Virus record (IMG/VR): IMGVR_UViG_3300023174_000533
Location: 1-27,940 of that record
DNA from: a virus
Length of the DNA stretch: 27,940 bases
Direction: 5' to 3' (one strand)
A program made the translations under genes and the position numbers. The notes under the pieces are model-generated. The model had not been told where the DNA came from. It ran no database searches and saw nothing but the letters and a program-made list of their open reading frames with translations. This document shows, one piece after another, positions 7,920-27,821 of this stretch (positions within the stretch are counted from its first letter, which is position 1; every line of letters begins with the position of its first letter).

Positions 7920-8363
7920 ATGTCAAGAGTACCAATACCACAAAGAGGGCAACCATTAGATGTTGCGTATATCTCTCAACTTTCAGAAGCAGTAAATGAT
8001 ATTGCTGGACAGGTATCTTCAGCAACTTATAACTATACAACAATTGATACTATAGACTCAGGCAAGCAAAGTATTAAAACTTCAGAGACCAGGGTTGTTG
8101 GTGGATACGTAGTGGTATCTAGTGATAGTGTAGTTACCTCATCTCAAACAAAATCATTTACATATACATTTTCAGGTGATTTTAAATATGTTCCAATTGT
8201 TACAGCAACACCAATTAATACAGGTAAAAACTCTGTAGGTGAAAATGTTACAGTAGTTTTAACAGATGTTAGTAGATCAAGCGTAACTGGATTTGTTAGA
8301 TATAATGCCAATGGTAGTGTTTCAACAGTTGTAAACCTAATCATCATTGGAATTCCTAATTAA
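7920..8363 (+). CDS. Putative fibre-tip / receptor-binding-type protein
   Basis: 147 residues; the ATG follows the strongest ribosome site of the tail region (AGGAGG, 6 bases upstream). The N-terminal 45 residues (PIPQRGQPLDVAYISQLSEA) look like an attachment segment with a helical piece. Residues about 55-147 are a Ser/Thr/Val-rich beta domain (VVGGYVVVSSD, FTYTFSGDFKYVPIVTATPI, VVLTDVSRSSVTGFVRYN) ending in hydrophobic NLIIIGIPN, typical in character of small trimeric fibre tips. It is the last structural gene before regulatory and replication genes and has its own promoter candidate. Function is inferred from fold character and position only. Confidence 0.65.
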   Translation: MSRVPIPQRGQPLDVAYISQLSEAVNDIAGQVSSATYNYTTIDTIDSGKQSIKTSETRVVGGYVVVSSDSVVTSSQTKSFTYTFSGDFKYVPIVTATPINTGKNSVGENVTVVLTDVSRSSVTGFVRYNANGSVSTVVNLIIIGIPN

Positions 8364-20244: not shown

Positions 20245-20770
20245 AGAAGAGTTAGTAAAACATCTTGATCAAGTAAATACAGTTGTTTCAGAATATTTAA
20301 AGGGCAATGACCCAACAAGAATTTCTAAAGAACTTTCTATCCCAAGAGTTAAAGTTGTAGAACTTATCAATGAGTGGAAGGTCATGGCTTCTGCTAATGA
20401 TGCTATCCGTGCTCGTGCAAAAGAAGCACTTGCATCAATGGATGCACACTATGGAAAACTTATTGCTAAATCTTATGAAGTTATTGATGAAGCATCTATG
20501 ACTAATAATCTTGGTGCAAAGACTCAAGCAATTAAACTTGTTATGGATATTGAGGCAAAGCGTATTGATATGCTACAAAAGGCTGGACTTCTTGAAAATA
20601 AAGAACTTGCAGAAGAAATGCTTGAAATTGAAAAGCGACAAGAAGTACTGGTTGGAATTTTAAGAGATGTTGCTACAACTCATCCAGAAGTTCGTGACTT
20701 GATTATGCAGAAGTTGTCTCAAGTAGCCAAAGAAGGCGAAGTGATTACAATTGTCCACGAAGTTCAATGA
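20234..20770 (+). CDS. Putative terminase small subunit
   Basis: 178 residues, all helical. An N-terminal HTH-like segment (about 25-50: DPTRISKELSIPRVKVVELI) is followed by long helices (about 55-150) suitable for oligomer formation. It ends 20 bases inside the TerL start, the usual small/large subunit order. The small subunit recognises the packaging site and assembles as a ring. The identification rests on position, length and the HTH; small subunits are too diverse to recognise with certainty. Confidence 0.7.
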   Translation: MTTEEELVKHLDQVNTVVSEYLKGNDPTRISKELSIPRVKVVELINEWKVMASANDAIRARAKEALASMDAHYGKLIAKSYEVIDEASMTNNLGAKTQAIKLVMDIEAKRIDMLQKAGLLENKELAEEMLEIEKRQEVLVGILRDVATTHPEVRDLIMQKLSQVAKEGEVITIVHEVQ

Positions 20771-22553
20771 TTTTTTTGAGGCACTTCAAGATAATAATTT
20801 TGAAGAAACTCCAGTAGATGCAAAAACATTTGTTGAACACCCAGATTACTTAGGTCAACCATCACTATCAACTATCCAATACGACATAGTTGAAGCAATG
20901 AGCCAAATATATAAAGAAGAAGATTTAAAATTAATTATGGGGCATGACAAAGGTGCTCAGTATTTTAAAAAATATACAAAGAATGAAATTATCCTGCAAC
21001 TTGGCAAGGGATCTGGAAAAGACTTCGTATCAACAGTAGCCTGTGCATACGTAGTATATAAACTATTGTGTCTTAAAGATCCTGCTAGATATTTTGGCAA
21101 GCCTGCAGGAGATGCTATTGATATTATTAACGTTGCTATTAACGCTCAACAGGCTAAGAATGTTTTCTTTAAAGGTTTTAAAAGTAAGATTGAACGCTCA
21201 CCCTGGTTTGCTGGAAAGTATGATCCAAAAGTAGACTCAATTGGATTTGATAAGTCTATTACTGTTTACTCTGGTCACTCAGAAAGAGAATCTCATGAAG
21301 GTTTAAACTTGCTTATGGCTGTTCTTGATGAAATTTCAGGCTTTGCAAATGAAGTTGGAACAGGAAACGATCAAGGAAAAACTGCTGATAATATTTACAA
21401 AGCATTTAGCGGTACTGTAGATTCTCGTTTCCCTGATCTTGGCAAGGTTGTTTTGCTTTCATTCCCCCGCTACAATGGAGACTTCATATCTCAACGTTAT
21501 GATGATGTCATTCTTGAAAAAGATATTATTGATAGAAAGCATACATATGTTATTAATCCTGATTTACCAGAAGATGAGATTGGGAACTCATTGGATATTG
21601 CTTGGGAAGAAGATCATATAATTTCATATAAGTATCCAGGAGTTTTTGCTTTAAAAAGACCAACATGGGAAGTAAACCCTACTCGTAGCATTGAAGATTT
21701 TAAAATGGCTTTCTTTAAAGATATGGGCGATGCCATGATGCGTTTTCTTTGTACGCCAACTTATTCATCAGATGCATTCTTTAAACAAAGAGACAAACTT
21801 GAAAAGTGTATGACACTTAGAAATCCTATTGATAATTTTAAAAGGTTTGATGAATCATTTAAACCAGATCCAGAAAAGATTTATTTTGTTCATGCTGACC
21901 TTGCACAAAAGCACGACAAGTGTGCTGTAGCAATTGCTCACGTAGAAAAGTGGGTAAATGTACAAGTAATTAATAATTATGAACAAGTAGCACCTATTGT
22001 AGTAGTAGATGCAGTAGTATATTGGGAGCCAAAAGTTGAAGGCCCAGTTAATCTTTCAGAGGTTAAACAATGGATTCAAAATCTTAGAAGGCTTGGATTT
22101 AATATTGGAATGGTTACATTTGACCGCTGGCAGTCATTTGATATTCAGCAAGAATTAAAGGCTGTTGGAATAAGAACTGATACTGTTTCTGTTGCTAAAA
22201 AACATTATGAAGATTTAGCAATGATGATTTATGAAGAGCGTGTTGCTATGCCTCATATTCAACTATTGCTTGATGAAATGTCAGAATTAAAAATAACAGA
22301 TAATGGTAAAAAAGTAGATCACCCACGCAAAAAATCTAAGGACTTAGCGGATGCTGTATGTGGGGCGGTATTTGATGCGATTAGTTTTACTCAAAAAGAT
22401 AACAATCTTGAAATTGAAGTTCACACATGGACTAATACTAAGAAAGATACACCCCTCTTTGTTGACAGCAATGGGGAGGGTATGATAGACTATAAAGGTA
22501 AAGAAATACCTGATGAGGTGAAAAACTACCTTGACAGATTTAATTTACTATAG
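20751..22553 (+). CDS. terL: Terminase large subunit
   Basis: 600 residues from TTG 20751. ATPase: Walker A GKGSGKD at 85-91 (Asp in place of the usual Thr/Ser after Lys), Walker B LLMAVLDEIS, and a coupling segment VVLLSFPRYNGDF. Nuclease (RNase H-like): first Asp in FVHADLAQKHD, a central TFDRWQS, and a final DLADAVCGAVFDAI, all expected TerL nuclease positions. It cuts concatemers and pumps DNA into proheads. A 20-base overlap with the gene before supports coupling. The next gene downstream is not portal but a surface-protein cassette, so the packaging and head genes are separated. Confidence 0.95.
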   Translation: MSTKFNDFFEALQDNNFEETPVDAKTFVEHPDYLGQPSLSTIQYDIVEAMSQIYKEEDLKLIMGHDKGAQYFKKYTKNEIILQLGKGSGKDFVSTVACAYVVYKLLCLKDPARYFGKPAGDAIDIINVAINAQQAKNVFFKGFKSKIERSPWFAGKYDPKVDSIGFDKSITVYSGHSERESHEGLNLLMAVLDEISGFANEVGTGNDQGKTADNIYKAFSGTVDSRFPDLGKVVLLSFPRYNGDFISQRYDDVILEKDIIDRKHTYVINPDLPEDEIGNSLDIAWEEDHIISYKYPGVFALKRPTWEVNPTRSIEDFKMAFFKDMGDAMMRFLCTPTYSSDAFFKQRDKLEKCMTLRNPIDNFKRFDESFKPDPEKIYFVHADLAQKHDKCAVAIAHVEKWVNVQVINNYEQVAPIVVVDAVVYWEPKVEGPVNLSEVKQWIQNLRRLGFNIGMVTFDRWQSFDIQQELKAVGIRTDTVSVAKKHYEDLAMMIYEERVAMPHIQLLLDEMSELKITDNGKKVDHPRKKSKDLADAVCGAVFDAISFTQKDNNLEIEVHTWTNTKKDTPLFVDSNGEGMIDYKGKEIPDEVKNYLDRFNLL

Positions 22554-22610: not shown

Positions 22611-23771
22611 ATGAATTCATTCAAGAAAATCGCTCTAGCCATGGTTGCAGCCATGACTATCGGCACAATCGTAGCAACGCCTGCAAACGCTGCTGTAATG
22701 ACAGTCGCTGTATCGCTTGATACTGTAGCAAATACTACAGCATCATCAATCGCAACACCCGCTTCATTGCCAGTACCTGCAGACAATTCAGTAGATTCTA
22801 CTGATGCACTAAAGTTTGTAGCAACAGTTGATGCAGGAACAAACGTTTCTGTAGTAGCAACAAATGCAACAATCGTGTCTGCACTGCACACATCTGCTGC
22901 ACCAGTAGGAGCAACTTCAGGATCTTCATCTTTGACAATTGCCACTGGTACAGGAACAACAGCAACATTTTATGTCTATACAAAGACAACAGCAATTGGT
23001 ACAGTTGTAATTACTAACGGTGGAACACAACTTACATACTACGTACAGGGAACTGCTGGTAAGATTAATACTCTAACAGTATCTGCTCCTGCTACAGGTG
23101 CTGCTGGCACAAAGCAAGACATTACAGTAACTGCAACAGACACATTTGGAAACAAGGTATCTGGTAAGTCAATTACTGCAACAGTATTTGCTGCAACAGC
23201 AACACTAGACACAGCAACAGCAACAACTGGTGCTACACTTTCAGACTTTGGAGTTGCTACATTTAAGGCAACACTTCCAGCAACTGGAGTGCGATCACTA
23301 ATCACATTTTCACCTACAACATCATCTGATGCAACAACAGCAGATGTAGTTGGTCTTCCTGCTCGTGCACTAGCACCTTTTGCAGAGATTACAGTTCGTG
23401 ATCTAGTATCAGAACTTGCAGCACAAATTGCTGCTAAGGATGCAGCACTTGCTGCTAAAGCAATTTCAGATGCTGCAGTTGTAAAGGCTGCTGCAGATGC
23501 TGCTGCTGCTAAGGTTACTTCAGATGCTGCTCTTGCAGCAGAAAAGGCTGCTTCTGTAAAGGCACTTGCTGATGCAAAGGCTGCTGCTGATAAGGCACTT
23601 GCTGATGCAAAGGCTGCTTCAGATAAGGTTATCCTTAATAAGGATGCAACTATTGCTAAGTTAACAGCAGATAATACTGCTGCACTTAAGTCAATTAAGG
23701 ATGCTTTCAATGCACTTGCAAAGAAGTGGAATGCAAAGAATCCAAAGGCTAAGGTTACTTACCTTAAGTAA
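22611..23771 (+). CDS. Secreted surface protein with Ig-like domain and Ala-rich coiled coil
   Basis: 386 residues. A clear Sec signal peptide (MNSFKKIALAMVAAMTIGTI, then ...TPANA) has a cleavage site after A27. Residues about 28-135 are a Thr/Val/Ala-rich beta domain. Residues 140-240 resemble a bacterial Ig-like (Big_1, invasin) repeat (DITVTATDTFGNKVSGKSIT, FGVATFKATL). Residues 262-370 form an Ala-rich coiled coil with 11-residue periodicity, ending in KKWNAKNPKAKVTYLK. There is no LPxTG or obvious anchor, so cell-wall association could use the coiled coil. Composition and codons (AAG, GCT, GCA) differ from neighbouring phage genes, and it has its own promoter and terminator, so I infer a host-derived moron that may alter the infected cell surface. 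Confidence 0.85.
   Translation: MNSFKKIALAMVAAMTIGTIVATPANAAVMTVAVSLDTVANTTASSIATPASLPVPADNSVDSTDALKFVATVDAGTNVSVVATNATIVSALHTSAAPVGATSGSSSLTIATGTGTTATFYVYTKTTAIGTVVITNGGTQLTYYVQGTAGKINTLTVSAPATGAAGTKQDITVTATDTFGNKVSGKSITATVFAATATLDTATATTGATLSDFGVATFKATLPATGVRSLITFSPTTSSDATTADVVGLPARALAPFAEITVRDLVSELAAQIAAKDAALAAKAISDAAVVKAAADAAAAKVTSDAALAAEKAASVKALADAKAAADKALADAKAASDKVILNKDATIAKLTADNTAALKSIKDAFNALAKKWNAKNPKAKVTYLK
23559..23618 (+). repeat. Two identical 27-bp direct repeats in the coiled-coil coding region
   Basis: Bases 23559-23585 and 23592-23618 are identical 27-mers (beginning AAGGCACTTGC) with a 33-bp period. They encode KALADAKAA twice, the 11-residue unit of the Ala-rich coiled coil. 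Recent duplication within the gene explains them. Confidence 0.8.
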
Positions 23772-23853: not shown

Positions 23854-23875
23854 AAGCATGAGGAGAGACCACCAC

Positions 23876-26014
23876 TTGAATAAACTCTTGCGTATATCTA
23901 CAGTTATTTTACTTGCTTTTGGATGGCTATTAATATCCCCACAAGATGCTCACTCTGACGATCCCTTAACAGTAGCAGCAAAACAAATTGAAAACCTCAA
24001 TAGCGCAGTAGATAAATTAGACTATAAAGATGGTCTAATAAACCTAATTGATATAGCAGAGAATAAGTTTATGTATGCTAAAAATCTACGGGATGTCAGA
24101 GACCTAGCAATTAAAAATTATGATGATGCAGTAGATGTAGAAGCCCTAGCACTGGAAGCAAAAGATCTTGCCCAGTCTAATGTAGATGGGCAAACAGCAA
24201 CAGTAGCCACTGCCATAACAAATAAGAATAATGCTAAAGATGCTCTTGATTTAGCCAACATTAATCTATCAACTGCTCAGCAAGCATTAAGTGGCGCAAG
24301 TGGCCCTGGTTTAAGATATGATGTCTACAGTTTGATTAGAGTTAATGGACAAGCAGCCACAGATCAACTACTATGTAGTGGCACATGGAATTCTAATTAT
24401 ATGAATTTACCTGTTTGTGGTAATAGATATGAAAACTTTATAGTTAAGTTTACTGGAAAAATAACAGTACCGTCATGGTTTACATCAACAAAATTTGCAG
24501 GATACACAGATGATGGTTTTAAAATGTATGTTAATGGAAACCTTGCTATAAATAACTGGCGTGAGCAGGGAGCAACATGGAGTGCATATTCTCCAATATA
24601 CGATGTAACTGAAGAAAAAGCATTAAATGTAGAGATATGGTGGTACAACGGTGGAGGGCCTGGATCCTACCATCTTGGCTGGGCTATTCCAGGAGGATGG
24701 ACTGGCGCAGGATGTGACTACGCTGGAGATCCAAGGGTCTGGGGACAAAACTTTAGTTGTAATCTAAATACATTTTCTTCTGGATCTGGAGCAAGTGCAA
24801 CACAGACTGCAGATTATCAAGCAGCATTAAGTGCAAAGAATGCAGCACAGCAAGAATATAATGACAAACTAAATGTATATAATCAAGAAGTTGCAACACT
24901 AAATTCATATAACCAAGACTTAACTAATAAGACATCTGAGTATGAAAATGCTGTTAATAATACAGAAGATGCTTTATATGAAAAAAATAATTCTATATCT
25001 AATTTAAATAACGCAATCCTTGATGTCAATAGTGCAATTAATGACGCATGGCGTTACTATGATGAGCAATCACAACGAGAAATTCAAAGAGCAATTGCAC
25101 AAGCAGCAGCCAACGCAGTAGCAAACCAACCTACACCAGAGCCAAAGCCTACTGTTGAACCAGAAAAACCAAAGCCTTCTGCACCACCAACAGAAAAACC
25201 TGAGCCAAAACCAACTAATAATACTGCCACAGAAGAACCAGGTCCAAAGCCAACACAGCCAGGCCCAAAGCCTACAGAGCCTGGACCTAAGCCAGAACCA
25301 ACAGACAAGCCAAATCCAGAGCCTACAGATAAGCCAAAGCCAGAAGAGCCTAAGCCTACATCTGCCCCAAGTCCTGAACCAAAGCCAGGGCCTACTCCAG
25401 AGCCTTCTGTAGAGCCTTCCCAAGAACCTAAACCACTTCCAAGACCAGACTTTAAGCCAGCAGAAAACATTGATCCAGTAATCAAGGATGCAGCATTAGC
25501 AGCACTTATCCCACAAAAGGGTACAGGAAATGCAGAAGATTTATCTGGTGTTATTGCAAACCTTACAAGCAAGGATAATAAATTAGTTAAACTTTCTGTA
25601 GAGCAAACAGCAGCAGTAAGTCAAACTCTTAAATCTCTTACTCAAGAAGCCAAGGCAGAAGTAGCAGAAAACCTTGGTATTTCACCAGCAGAAGTTACAA
25701 AGGTTGCAGAGGCGATGAAGTCAAACCCTGCAGTAGCAGCAGCGTTTGTTGAGTTTGCAGAAAGAGCAGGGGATGCAGGAGATACCCCAATGCCATTTAC
25801 ATTAGCAGATGCAACAACAGAAGTACAAACAGAAGCATTTTTAGCAGACCCACTTGGAGCAGTTTTTGCGGTGGACCCAGTAGAACTTCTATCTAATTTC
25901 TTTGAGTTAGGTATGGATATGACAGACGATCAGAGAGAGAAAGCGCAAGAAGTAATTGTCCCAGTGGTCATTGCATCACAAATTGCAGGGGCAATGATAA
26001 GGAGGAACAAATGA
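23876..26014 (+). CDS. Secreted PA14-domain surface protein with Pro-rich stalk
   Basis: I start it at TTG 23876 (712 residues): AGGAGAGA lies 8-10 bases upstream and the TTG gives a compact signal peptide (NKLLRISTVILLAFGWLLIS, then PQDAHS). An in-frame ATG at 23858 lacks a ribosome site and sits 4 bases after the -10 box. Order: signal peptide; helical coiled coil 30-140; PA14-like beta domain about 142-300 (FAGYTDDGFKMYVNGNLAIN, then EIWWYNGGG and SYHLGWAIPGG) with four Cys that could form disulfides; second coiled coil 305-410; PKP/PEP repeat stalk 418-520; helical domain; hydrophobic VIVPVVIASQIAGAM then RRNK at the C-terminus, a possible membrane anchor. PA14 domains commonly bind carbohydrates. 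It is probably displayed on the infected cell. It could alternatively aid lysis, but I see no catalytic motif. Confidence 0.8.
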   Translation: MNKLLRISTVILLAFGWLLISPQDAHSDDPLTVAAKQIENLNSAVDKLDYKDGLINLIDIAENKFMYAKNLRDVRDLAIKNYDDAVDVEALALEAKDLAQSNVDGQTATVATAITNKNNAKDALDLANINLSTAQQALSGASGPGLRYDVYSLIRVNGQAATDQLLCSGTWNSNYMNLPVCGNRYENFIVKFTGKITVPSWFTSTKFAGYTDDGFKMYVNGNLAINNWREQGATWSAYSPIYDVTEEKALNVEIWWYNGGGPGSYHLGWAIPGGWTGAGCDYAGDPRVWGQNFSCNLNTFSSGSGASATQTADYQAALSAKNAAQQEYNDKLNVYNQEVATLNSYNQDLTNKTSEYENAVNNTEDALYEKNNSISNLNNAILDVNSAINDAWRYYDEQSQREIQRAIAQAAANAVANQPTPEPKPTVEPEKPKPSAPPTEKPEPKPTNNTATEEPGPKPTQPGPKPTEPGPKPEPTDKPNPEPTDKPKPEEPKPTSAPSPEPKPGPTPEPSVEPSQEPKPLPRPDFKPAENIDPVIKDAALAALIPQKGTGNAEDLSGVIANLTSKDNKLVKLSVEQTAAVSQTLKSLTQEAKAEVAENLGISPAEVTKVAEAMKSNPAVAAAFVEFAERAGDAGDTPMPFTLADATTEVQTEAFLADPLGAVFAVDPVELLSNFFELGMDMTDDQREKAQEVIVPVVIASQIAGAMIRRNK
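25131..25436 (+). repeat. Proline-rich degenerate tandem repeat region
   Basis: About 300 bases coding for repeated PEPKPT, PGPKPTEP and PTDKPNPEPT units. The DNA is a degenerate repeat of CCAAAGCC- and CCAGAGCCT-type words. The encoded polyproline-like stalk resembles wall-spanning segments of Gram-positive surface proteins. Confidence 0.75.
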
Positions 26015-26238
26015 AAATAATCAATAAAGCCATCAACCTGGTAGGCAAAATGCTCAAGGGATTAATTAAATGGTTTAAAGATGCAGGAATGGAATTAATT
26101 GCACAAGCATTTACCCTCCTTGGCTTCTTTATCGCATGGCTAACTTTAACGGGATCAGCAAGAGACATTGTTGGAATTGCAGTACTTGCAACAACAGTTA
26201 TTTGGCTAATTACAATCCCGCTTAGAAAGGAGAAATAA
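26011..26238 (+). CDS. Small membrane protein, holin-like candidate
   Basis: 75 residues, starting in an ATGA overlap with the PA14 gene. An amphipathic basic N-terminus (MKIINKAINLVGKMLKGLIK) is followed by two predicted membrane segments (about 29-48 and 51-70, LIAQAFTLLGFFIAWLTLTG and IVGIAVLATTVIWLITIPL) and an RKEK tail. Size, topology and the neighbouring membrane protein suggest a holin or antiholin pair. No endolysin gene lies in the window, so the lysis role is by inference only. Confidence 0.65.
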   Translation: MKIINKAINLVGKMLKGLIKWFKDAGMELIAQAFTLLGFFIAWLTLTGSARDIVGIAVLATTVIWLITIPLRKEK

Positions 26239-26239
26239 A

Positions 26240-26524
26240 ATGACAACTAAAAAAGTAGCAGAACCCCCAAAGAAAGAGCACCCACAGAAAGCAATAACAA
26301 ATATCTTAATGAGAATTCTTGCTGTATTTGCAGCATCTGGTCTATCAGTTTTAGGAGCAGGAGCCGTAGTAGGAATTGAAACTGTACAGGCAGTAATGCT
26401 TGCAGGACTATTAGGAGTAGCAACAGTTATTGAAAGACTGGCAAGGGCTTTTTTGGACGATGGAAGGCTATCATTAGCAGAAATAAATGATGCCTTTAAA
26501 ACGGTAGATAAAAAGGCTAATTAG
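26240..26524 (+). CDS. Putative holin
   Basis: 94 residues with strong AGGAG before the ATG. A charged N-terminus is followed by two hydrophobic segments (about 24-45, ILMRILAVFAASGLSVLGAG; and 50-68, VQAVMLAGLLGVATVIE), then LARAFLDDGRLSLAEINDAF, an acidic EF-hand-like tail found in phage holins of actinophage type. It is one base downstream of the first membrane protein, so the two are probably made together. Holins open the inner membrane for lysis. The tail motif makes this the better holin candidate of the two. Confidence 0.7.
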   Translation: MTTKKVAEPPKKEHPQKAITNILMRILAVFAASGLSVLGAGAVVGIETVQAVMLAGLLGVATVIERLARAFLDDGRLSLAEINDAFKTVDKKAN

Positions 26525-26540
26525 TCATATTTAACCTTGC

Positions 26541-26570
26541 TTGACAGCCCTCTCCAGTCAATGGTATACT
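26541..26570 (+). promoter_or_regulatory. Sigma70-type promoter of the Ntn peptidase gene
   Basis: TTGACA at 26541-26546, 18 bases, TATACT at 26565-26570 in GGTATACTT with TG ahead (extended -10). The start should be near 26577, in the loop of the hairpin at 26548-26593. It belongs to the GGTATACTT family with the sites at 8956 and 27109. Confidence 0.7.
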
Positions 26571-26598
26571 TGAAATCTACCATTTGGAGAGGGTTTTT
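26548..26598 (+). terminator. Terminator-like hairpin that also buries the ribosome site
   Basis: CCCTCTCCA (26548-26556) pairs with TGGAGAGGG (26585-26593), and AATGGTA (26560-26566) with TACCATT (26578-26584), with a 3-base bulge and an 11-base loop. T5 follows at once. The 3' arm contains GGAGAGG, the ribosome site of ATG 26601. Read-through RNA from the holin gene can fold; RNA from the internal promoter lacks the 5' arm. Confidence 0.75.
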
Positions 26599-26600
26599 GC

Positions 26601-27128
26601 ATGACAATTATTGCTGTCGTAAGACAAGATGAAACAGTTCATATGGCTGGTGACAGAGGTGCATCAACAGAAGACTCTATCTTAGTATTAAAGGCTCCAA
26701 AAGTATTTAAAATTGGTCCTTATCTTTTTGGTTATGCAGGAACAATGGATGGAGAAAGAATTCGTCATAATTTTAAACCACCTGTACCAAAGCCAAATGC
26801 TAATTTAGATAAGTTTATGTATACTGAATTTCTTGTTGCACTTAGAAATTTTTATGAAACTTGGTGGGTAGATATATCAAAAGAATCTGATTTTGGTATG
26901 CTTATTGCAATTAAAGGAAGAGTCTTTGAACATAACGTAGTTGATATGTCTTTAACAGAATACCAAGAAGATTATCTTGCAATGGGATCAGGATCTGATT
27001 TTGCACTTGGTTCTTTATGGACAACTCAAAATCAAAAAAATGGTAAAAGAAGAGCACAATTAGCAGTAGAAGCAGCCATAAAATATTCAACATCCTGTAT
27101 TGGACCAGTTGACGTATTAAGTATTTAG
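26601..27128 (+). CDS. HslV/proteasome-like Ntn-hydrolase peptidase
   Basis: 175 residues. After removal of Met1 the protein begins TIIAVVRQD, as HslV begins TTIVSVRRN, and the residues align without gaps: Thr1 nucleophile, Asp17 (MAGDRGAS) and Lys33 (LKAPKVFKI) are all in HslV register. YLFGYAGTMDGERI matches the HslV AGFAG segment, and YLAMGSGSDFALGSL the conserved IGSGG block with Ser129. AQLAVEAAIKYSTSCIGPV matches the last helix and strand. I therefore read it as an active-site-competent proteasome/HslV-family threonine peptidase. No HslU or other AAA+ partner is encoded here, so it may use a host unfoldase, act alone, or be a relative with another substrate. Hsp20 lies 267 bases downstream. 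Confidence 0.85.
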   Translation: MTIIAVVRQDETVHMAGDRGASTEDSILVLKAPKVFKIGPYLFGYAGTMDGERIRHNFKPPVPKPNANLDKFMYTEFLVALRNFYETWWVDISKESDFGMLIAIKGRVFEHNVVDMSLTEYQEDYLAMGSGSDFALGSLWTTQNQKNGKRRAQLAVEAAIKYSTSCIGPVDVLSI

Positions 27129-27137
27129 GGGTATACT
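27109..27137 (+). promoter_or_regulatory. Promoter producing an apparently leaderless mRNA
   Basis: TTGACG at 27109-27114, 17 bases, TATACT at 27132-27137 in GGTATACTT. Only 6 bases separate the -10 box from the ATG at 27144, so transcription should begin at or next to the A of the start codon. No ribosome site is present. The promoter overlaps the end of the peptidase gene. Confidence 0.65.
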
Positions 27138-27143
27138 TATAAT

Positions 27144-27335
27144 ATGAATGAAGAAGTATCAATAGAAGAGCAAGAGTTTGGAATTTGGATTACAAACGGC
27201 ATTGAAAGAGGTTGGATTACAGAACCTTATTGTCATACCCATGATGGTGGAACTCAATATATGAGTGAAGAAGAGATTCAAGAATGGGAAGATGGCGGAG
27301 ATCCCTGTGAGCACGTTGTAAGACTTATGATATAA
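27144..27335 (+). CDS. Small acidic His/Cys protein
   Basis: 63 residues, strongly acidic. WITNGIERGWITEPYCHTHD, then MSEEEIQEWEDGGDPCEHVV: the spacing C29-x-H31-x-H/D and C55-x-H57 could hold a zinc ion. Such short proteins occur in other actinophages, but I know of no function. It is read from an apparently leaderless mRNA and lies between the peptidase and Hsp20, so it may belong to the proteostasis cluster, perhaps as an adaptor; this is a guess from position. Confidence 0.65.
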   Translation: MNEEVSIEEQEFGIWITNGIERGWITEPYCHTHDGGTQYMSEEEIQEWEDGGDPCEHVVRLMI

Positions 27336-27395: not shown

Positions 27396-27821
27396 ATGGT
27401 AACATCATATACATATAACGGATCTTTTGGAAATTTTTTCAATGATCCATTTTTTATCGGTTTTGACAAAATGTTTGACCGATTAACAAACACAACAAAT
27501 CAACAATCTGGATTTCCTCCATATAATGTTCGCAAGGTAGACGAAGATACATTCGTTGTTGAACTTGCAGTAGCAGGTTTTAATAAACAGGCTATTGAAA
27601 TTACAGAGCATGATGGAGTTCTTACCATTAAGGGTGAGCGTCCAGAAGATGCTGAAGAATATATTCACAAGGGAATTGCAGGTAGAAAATTTACTCGCAC
27701 ATTTACGCTTGCAGAGTATATGTATGTTGATAGTGCTGATCTTAATGATGGAATGCTTTATGTTGTTGTAAAGCGTGATATTCCAGAAGAGAAAAAGCCA
27801 AAAACAATCAAAGTAAAGTAG
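27396..27821 (+). CDS. Small heat-shock protein, Hsp20/IbpA-like
   Basis: 141 residues. The N-terminus is FF-rich (GNFFNDPFFIGFDKMFDRL), as in IbpA-type proteins. The alpha-crystallin domain (about 43-130) contains YNVRKVDEDTFVVELAVAGF, then ITEHDGVLTIKGER, GIAGRKFTRTFTLAEYM and LNDGMLYVVVKRDIPE. The C-terminal TIKVK supplies the I-x-I/V anchor. Such chaperones hold unfolded proteins and occur in cyanophages and some other phages. The residues for oligomer formation are all present, so it is likely functional. It follows the Ntn peptidase and a small acidic gene. Ribosome site AAAGGGGA. Confidence 0.93.
   Translation: MVTSYTYNGSFGNFFNDPFFIGFDKMFDRLTNTTNQQSGFPPYNVRKVDEDTFVVELAVAGFNKQAIEITEHDGVLTIKGERPEDAEEYIHKGIAGRKFTRTFTLAEYMYVDSADLNDGMLYVVVKRDIPEEKKPKTIKVK

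Follow-up and report, generated by a model that had tools for sequence, protein, structure and literature searches.

A predicted proteasome-like threonine peptidase conserved in a lineage of probable freshwater actinobacterial phages

The 175-aa product of an open reading frame at positions 26601..27128 (+ strand) of a viral contig was identified as a proteasome-like (HslV/BPH-family) Ntn threonine peptidase from its PHROG match, its AlphaFold2 (AF2) model and its alignment to known family members. The predicted catalytic competence of this protein is well supported by conservation, and we consider it probable that it works as a BPH-like peptidase without a dedicated phage ATPase. The whole stretch of 27,940 nucleotides analysed here, referred to as the window, had previously been interpreted from its letters and open reading frames, and that sequence-only reading had assigned an HslV/proteasome-type peptidase to this locus, which was confirmed by the match to PHROG 1040, the AF2 model and the register of the catalytic residues. 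The novelty implied by that reading was overrated, since phage proteasome homologs had been published (PMC8665760) and a named PHROG exists.

The PHROG 1040 family ('peptidase HslV family') matched the protein over its full length (residues 1-175, E 7.1e-23). The general profiles gave weak matches: the Pfam Proteasome profile scored 20.3 bits (E 4.5e-4), below the gathering score of 22.4, and the NCBIfam 20S (beta) and HslV equivalogs scored 21-27 bits (E 4e-6 to 2e-4), far under their cut-offs. The score against the HslV equivalog TIGR03692 (23 bits against a cut-off of 157.75) leaves the protein outside this equivalog. A PDB sequence search returned marginal matches only, with archaeal 20S beta, BPH and HslV at the top. 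The strong PHROG match together with the weak Pfam, NCBIfam and PDB matches indicated that the peptidase is, by sequence, a member of the superfamily divergent from every characterised member. Homologs were present in 156 deposited phage records and in at least 503 stretches of IMG/VR. A scan of a bacterial and archaeal genome collection with the peptidase alignment gave one partial match only, in a Pirellulaceae MAG contig (L066, 191-289), and PF00227 had no match in the control Corynebacterium glutamicum.

The AF2 monomer model, built from 36 sequences of the window and IMG/VR, had a mean pLDDT of 92.9 and a pTM of 0.88. The best structural match was BPH (5ovt; Z 19.8, 164 residues, 2.5 A), with residues 2..175 of the model aligned to residues 1..186 of BPH, followed by HslV (6kr1; Z 19.7) and then by 20S beta subunits, including that of Mtb (Z 18.0). 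All three types superposed on the model at Z 17-20 over 161-171 residues. The nearest predicted viral structures were other phage proteins, several of them named HslV or proteasome subunit. The model contained helices at 50-57 and 69-87 (the second helix) and a last strand at 170-174 with no helix after it. As modelled, the protein has the four-layer alpha-beta-beta-alpha Ntn fold of the proteasome type and is a compact subunit with no insertions and no C-terminal S12/H5, as expected of the group I proteasome homologs HslV, BPH, AAH, CPH and PPH (PMC8665760). The Ntn fold anticipated by the sequence-only reading was thus borne out, because the model superposed best on BPH, HslV and 20S beta.

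The phage proteasome homologs PPH, AAH and CPH described by Fuchs, Alva and Lupas in 2021 carry the same catalytic residues, and neither an AAA+ partner nor a functional context was found for them (PMC8665760). The window peptidase resembles AAH, CPH and PPH in being phage-encoded, in a compact group I fold that stops at the last strand, in its Thr/Ser1, Asp17 and Lys33 residues, and in the lack of a detectable AAA+ partner. Unlike PPH, which is ~140 aa long and lacks H2, it has 175 aa and the second helix at 69-87, which sets it apart from that group. No Actinobacteria-specific phage with AAH was found in that survey (PMC8665760), whereas the window lineage is probably actinobacterial. The best structural match, BPH (betaproteobacteria proteasome homologue; 5ovt, 5ovs, 5ovu), is a peptidase thought to act without an unfoldase; it shares 21% identity with the window protein, in which an 11-residue stretch (88-98, WWVDISKESDF) after helix 2 probably takes the place of BPH's longer, acidic pore loop. 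HslV (ClpQ) has the same fold and the same register of catalytic residues, but its identity to the window peptidase is 19%, the match falls far under the equivalog cut-off, and no HslU was found in the phage. The jumbo phage pSal-SNUABM-04 has likewise been reported with HslV and without HslU (PMC7823757). Members of PHROG 1040 in cultured phages, a label carried by proteins of many phages, among them Moorella phage MTATph1 and Aeromonas phage 2L372D, are about 25-34% identical to the window protein, and the window lineage has conserved blocks of its own, for example FGYAGTMDG and FYExWWVD. The lake actinophage DSL-LC01 (Actinomycetia phage; OQ999401, Dishui Lake) encodes a homolog labelled HslV that adjoins WhiB; this homolog differs in its length (229 aa), its basic C-terminal tail, its identity of about 33% over 116 aa and its gene neighbourhood. 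Aeromonas phage 2L372D carries two adjoining 'peptidase HslV family' genes (L059, 6570-7454), a possible pair of different proteasome-like subunits.

Numbered after the initiator Met, the residues Thr1, Asp17 and Lys33 are present and in register, and the 'GSGS' block, which the sequence-only reading had matched to the IGSGG of HslV, aligned with GSG in both BPH and the 20S beta subunit. Conservation was assessed across 57 distinct full-length homologs, comprising 47 from the same lineage, two distant IMG/VR alleles and eight from other deposited phages. Position 1 was Thr in 54 and Ser in three of them, Lys33 and Gly128 were present in all 57, and position 129 was Ser in 53 and Cys in four. 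Position 17 was more permissive, with Asp in 50 homologs and Glu in seven. The earlier claim of intact catalytic residues therefore held, with T/S1 and K33 invariant across the 57 homologs, and the expected conservation of Thr2, Asp18 and Lys34 (Met numbering) held for T/S2 and K34 in 57/57; it failed for D18, which is Glu in 7/57 homologs from two lineages. The Glu17 alleles form two separate clades, for which the tree needs two changes. Pairwise dN/dS of the peptidase gene was 0.025-0.147 (17 pairs), indicating strong purifying selection, and was 0.058 and 0.025 within the two Glu17 clades. Because the Glu17 alleles stay under purifying selection, Glu17 looks like a tolerated or tuned substitution rather than decay. 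The Glu17 variants show that the lineage does not strictly require Asp17, so these variants may have an altered or weak catalysis.

The in-frame stretch upstream of the start codon spans at most 21 codons, is unconserved and differs between alleles at the 52 IMG/VR loci compared, leaving no room for a propeptide and supporting both the predicted start codon and the absence of a propeptide. Thr or Ser directly follows Met in 57/57 homologs. Methionine aminopeptidases remove Met before Thr or Ser, and with no propeptide the removal of Met1 by the host enzyme would expose Thr1 directly. In Moorella phage MTATph1 (L054, 8001-8558), the deposited start at 8043 is probably 14 codons late; a TTG codon at 8001 gives the conserved M-T-C-I with Thr1.

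Ten proteins of the window were collinear with those of Streptomyces phage Karimac (Stanwilliamsviridae) at 32-53% identity, in a set that begins with DnaB helicase, continues with primase, SSB, DnaE, UvsX, Holliday resolvase, exonuclease and RuvC, and ends with the terminase. The terminase large subunit (20751..22553, + strand), which served as the anchor for lineage and synteny, was 53% identical to that of Karimac, and its best matches were in Streptomyces phages, followed by Rhodococcus phages. WhiB, which marks actinobacteria and the phages that infect them, was encoded in 9 of the 12 related contigs tested, including all eight of at least 80 kb, and Corynebacterium glutamicum alone matched among 14 control genomes. 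The terminase matches and the WhiB genes of the related contigs together indicate that the host is most likely an actinobacterium. The source phage is likely a freshwater relative of Stanwilliamsviridae, a habitat taken from the lake sources of similar phages rather than from the record metadata.

The core status of the gene was assessed with the terminase, not the peptidase, as bait; 80 loci were fetched and only those with at least 5 kb downstream were counted. The peptidase was carried by all 19 such loci, on the same strand and 3.1-6.2 kb past the terminase. Four terminase loci without the peptidase have just 4.1-4.4 kb downstream and may end too early. No peptidase homolog (E <= 1) was found in six complete cultured relatives (Karimac, NootNoot, Annadreamy, Trina, NiceHouse and Weasels2) with the same profile that found four positive controls. 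These six are soil relatives belonging to Stanwilliamsviridae or to Trinavirus/Weaselvirus; gp154 of Karimac, labelled 'peptidase', is not homologous to the window peptidase. Since 19/19 loci carry the peptidase and the six cultured relatives do not, the gene is a lineage-specific addition that has since become fixed as a core gene.

The close relative G001 (104.8 kb) has its terminase at 82.1 kb. Its peptidase gene, at 87.1 kb, is followed by those of a 63-aa protein, Hsp20, an HNH-like protein and a CHAP endolysin. The 63-aa protein of the window (27144..27335, + strand) is the steadiest downstream companion, its cluster being present in 44/55 loci examined, usually directly 3' of the peptidase; its only cultured match, a weak one, was gp2 of Mycobacterium phage Aminay, and its conserved motifs are WI..GI.RGWI..P.C.THDG and GGDPC. 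The small heat shock protein of the Hsp20/alpha-crystallin family (27396..27821, + strand) occurs in 15/22 related contigs, including all eight of at least 80 kb; its distance to the peptidase varies from 0.4 to 23 kb, which ruled it out as an operon partner. Upstream lie two small proteins of 75 and 94 aa (26011..26524, + strand), probably membrane proteins of the lysis region, the larger with a weak match to the PHROG holin 443. A conserved 718-aa protein (23858-26014) of secreted appearance separates the terminase from the small membrane proteins at 39 loci; it has a Pro/Lys/Glu-rich repeat and a weak PA14 domain. A 386-aa Ala/Thr-rich protein (22611-23771), with a signal-like N-terminus and an Ala/Lys coiled-coil C-terminus, lies directly 3' of the terminase and had no Pfam or PHROG match.

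The absence of an HslU-like ATPase from the window, noted in the sequence-only reading, held when the check was widened to 26 records: there was no HslU in the window, no AAA_2 (ClpX/HslU-type) match in 22 related contigs (incomplete; eight of at least 80 kb) and four other phages, and no convincing PF00004 AAA match, with two weak matches under the cut-off. The candidate of a phage-encoded HslU/ClpX partner was dropped after this search. As the contigs are incomplete, the peptidase may still be served by an unfoldase outside AAA_2 or by a partner from the host (ClpX, ClpC or Mpa/ARC).

A near-consensus sigma70-like promoter (TTGACA-N18-TATACT; 26541..26570, + strand) lies 5' of the peptidase gene and scored best in the part of the window that was scanned; few matches to this pattern would be expected by chance. 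It was kept at a similar distance from the start codon in 39/48 distinct lineage alleles and in none of the other phages. An inverted repeat, CCCTCTCCA/TGGAGAGGG, followed by T5 (26548..26598, + strand) overlaps this promoter, so that its 5' arm falls within the spacer between the -35 and -10 elements and its 3' arm coincides with the Shine-Dalgarno sequence that serves the peptidase gene. The folding z was -4.8 in the window and -3.3 to -6.5 in three relatives. The hairpin overlapped the promoter in the window and in 10/25 relatives examined (11/26 alleles), and some alleles were without it. The arm sequences vary between clades with the folding kept; covariation by alignment was weak (4 pairs), though single sequences fold well. 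We infer that the hairpin is a terminator-like or RBS-masking element for read-through RNA: RNA started at the 26541 promoter would lack the 5' arm, whereas in read-through RNA the hairpin would cause termination or mask the ribosome site. A second sigma70-like promoter (TTGACG-N17-TATACT; 27109..27137, + strand) lies in the 3' end of the peptidase ORF and would serve the 63-aa gene.

In the reading that we consider probable, the peptidase would be expressed during infection from its own sigma70-like promoter, and Lys33 as the base, with Asp/Glu17 stabilising, would activate Thr1 as the nucleophile. The protein, modelled here as a monomer, most likely forms a self-compartmentalised ring with limited access. 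As has been proposed for BPH, it would need no dedicated phage AAA+ unfoldase to cut peptides or polypeptides that are unfolded. In freshwater actinophages it would have a fixed, lineage-specific role, most likely in clearing or turning over host or phage proteins that are unfolded. The ring, the independence from an ATPase and the substrates we infer from relatives of the peptidase.

In the main rival reading, the protein would be an HslV-type peptidase served by an AAA+ unfoldase of the host (ClpX, ClpC or Mpa/ARC), through which it would redirect host proteolysis to chosen proteins. The rank of HslV as second-best structural match and the lack of a phage-encoded unfoldase fit such a partnership, which is nonetheless unlikely given that Actinobacteria, the likely hosts, are without a record of HslV (PMC8665760, Table 1) or its partner HslU, that the HslV equivalog score stays at 23 bits against 158, and that no AAA+ interactor was found to co-occur with the phage groups in the work of Fuchs et al. 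(PMC8665760). The peptidase could also act on one specific substrate, as connectase does, either as a highly specific processing enzyme or as a peptide ligase for one phage or host protein, perhaps in functions of the tail, lysis or the envelope that are encoded nearby. That the family includes specific ligases is known from connectase (PMC8665760), and the gene is fixed between the terminase/secreted proteins and the CHAP endolysin region; the model, however, is a compact group I fold with no connectase-like helical insertion evident, and we give little weight to this explanation.

A role in head or virion maturation, raised among the suggestions of the sequence-only reading, is suggested by the many phages that encode maturation proteases and by the position of the gene near the terminase, but is highly improbable. 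The same reading had argued against a classical prohead protease and had located the gene outside the head module, and both points were upheld in G001, in which Peptidase_S78 sits between portal and capsid (44.7-48.9 kb), about 40 kb upstream of the peptidase; an S78 prohead protease was present in 10/12 related contigs. With a separate S78 protease adjoining portal and capsid, head maturation was rejected. Host remodelling and a supply of amino acids, which the sequence-only reading also put forward, would be conjectural roles. It is equally hard to credit a catalytically dead scaffold that merely keeps the fold: the replacement of Asp17 by Glu in 7/57 homologs would suit it, but T/S1 and K33 do not vary even among divergent phages, and the gene is under strong selection. 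A doubtful but conceivable extension of the preferred, ATPase-independent reading is that the peptidase forms a core proteasome-like particle of an abundant freshwater actinophage lineage, brought into hosts without HslUV; its aromatic WWVD pore loop would be particular to the lineage, and repeated Asp17-to-Glu changes would tune its active site.

Phage proteasome homologs were thus already known in kind (PMC8665760), and our analysis adds core status, abundance (at least 503 stretches) and host range. They have been known from sequence since 2021, with no assigned function for any of them in the literature searched. The probable hosts of the lineage lie outside the recorded range of HslV, and the gap noted by Fuchs et al. 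is filled by actinobacterial phages with such a gene, of which DSL-LC01 already has one labelled HslV. The lineage offers an unusually good handle: its homologs number in the hundreds, their genomic position is fixed, selection is strong and Asp17/Glu17 variants occur naturally. It makes the action of a proteasome-like peptidase without an unfoldase in a phage a directly testable question.
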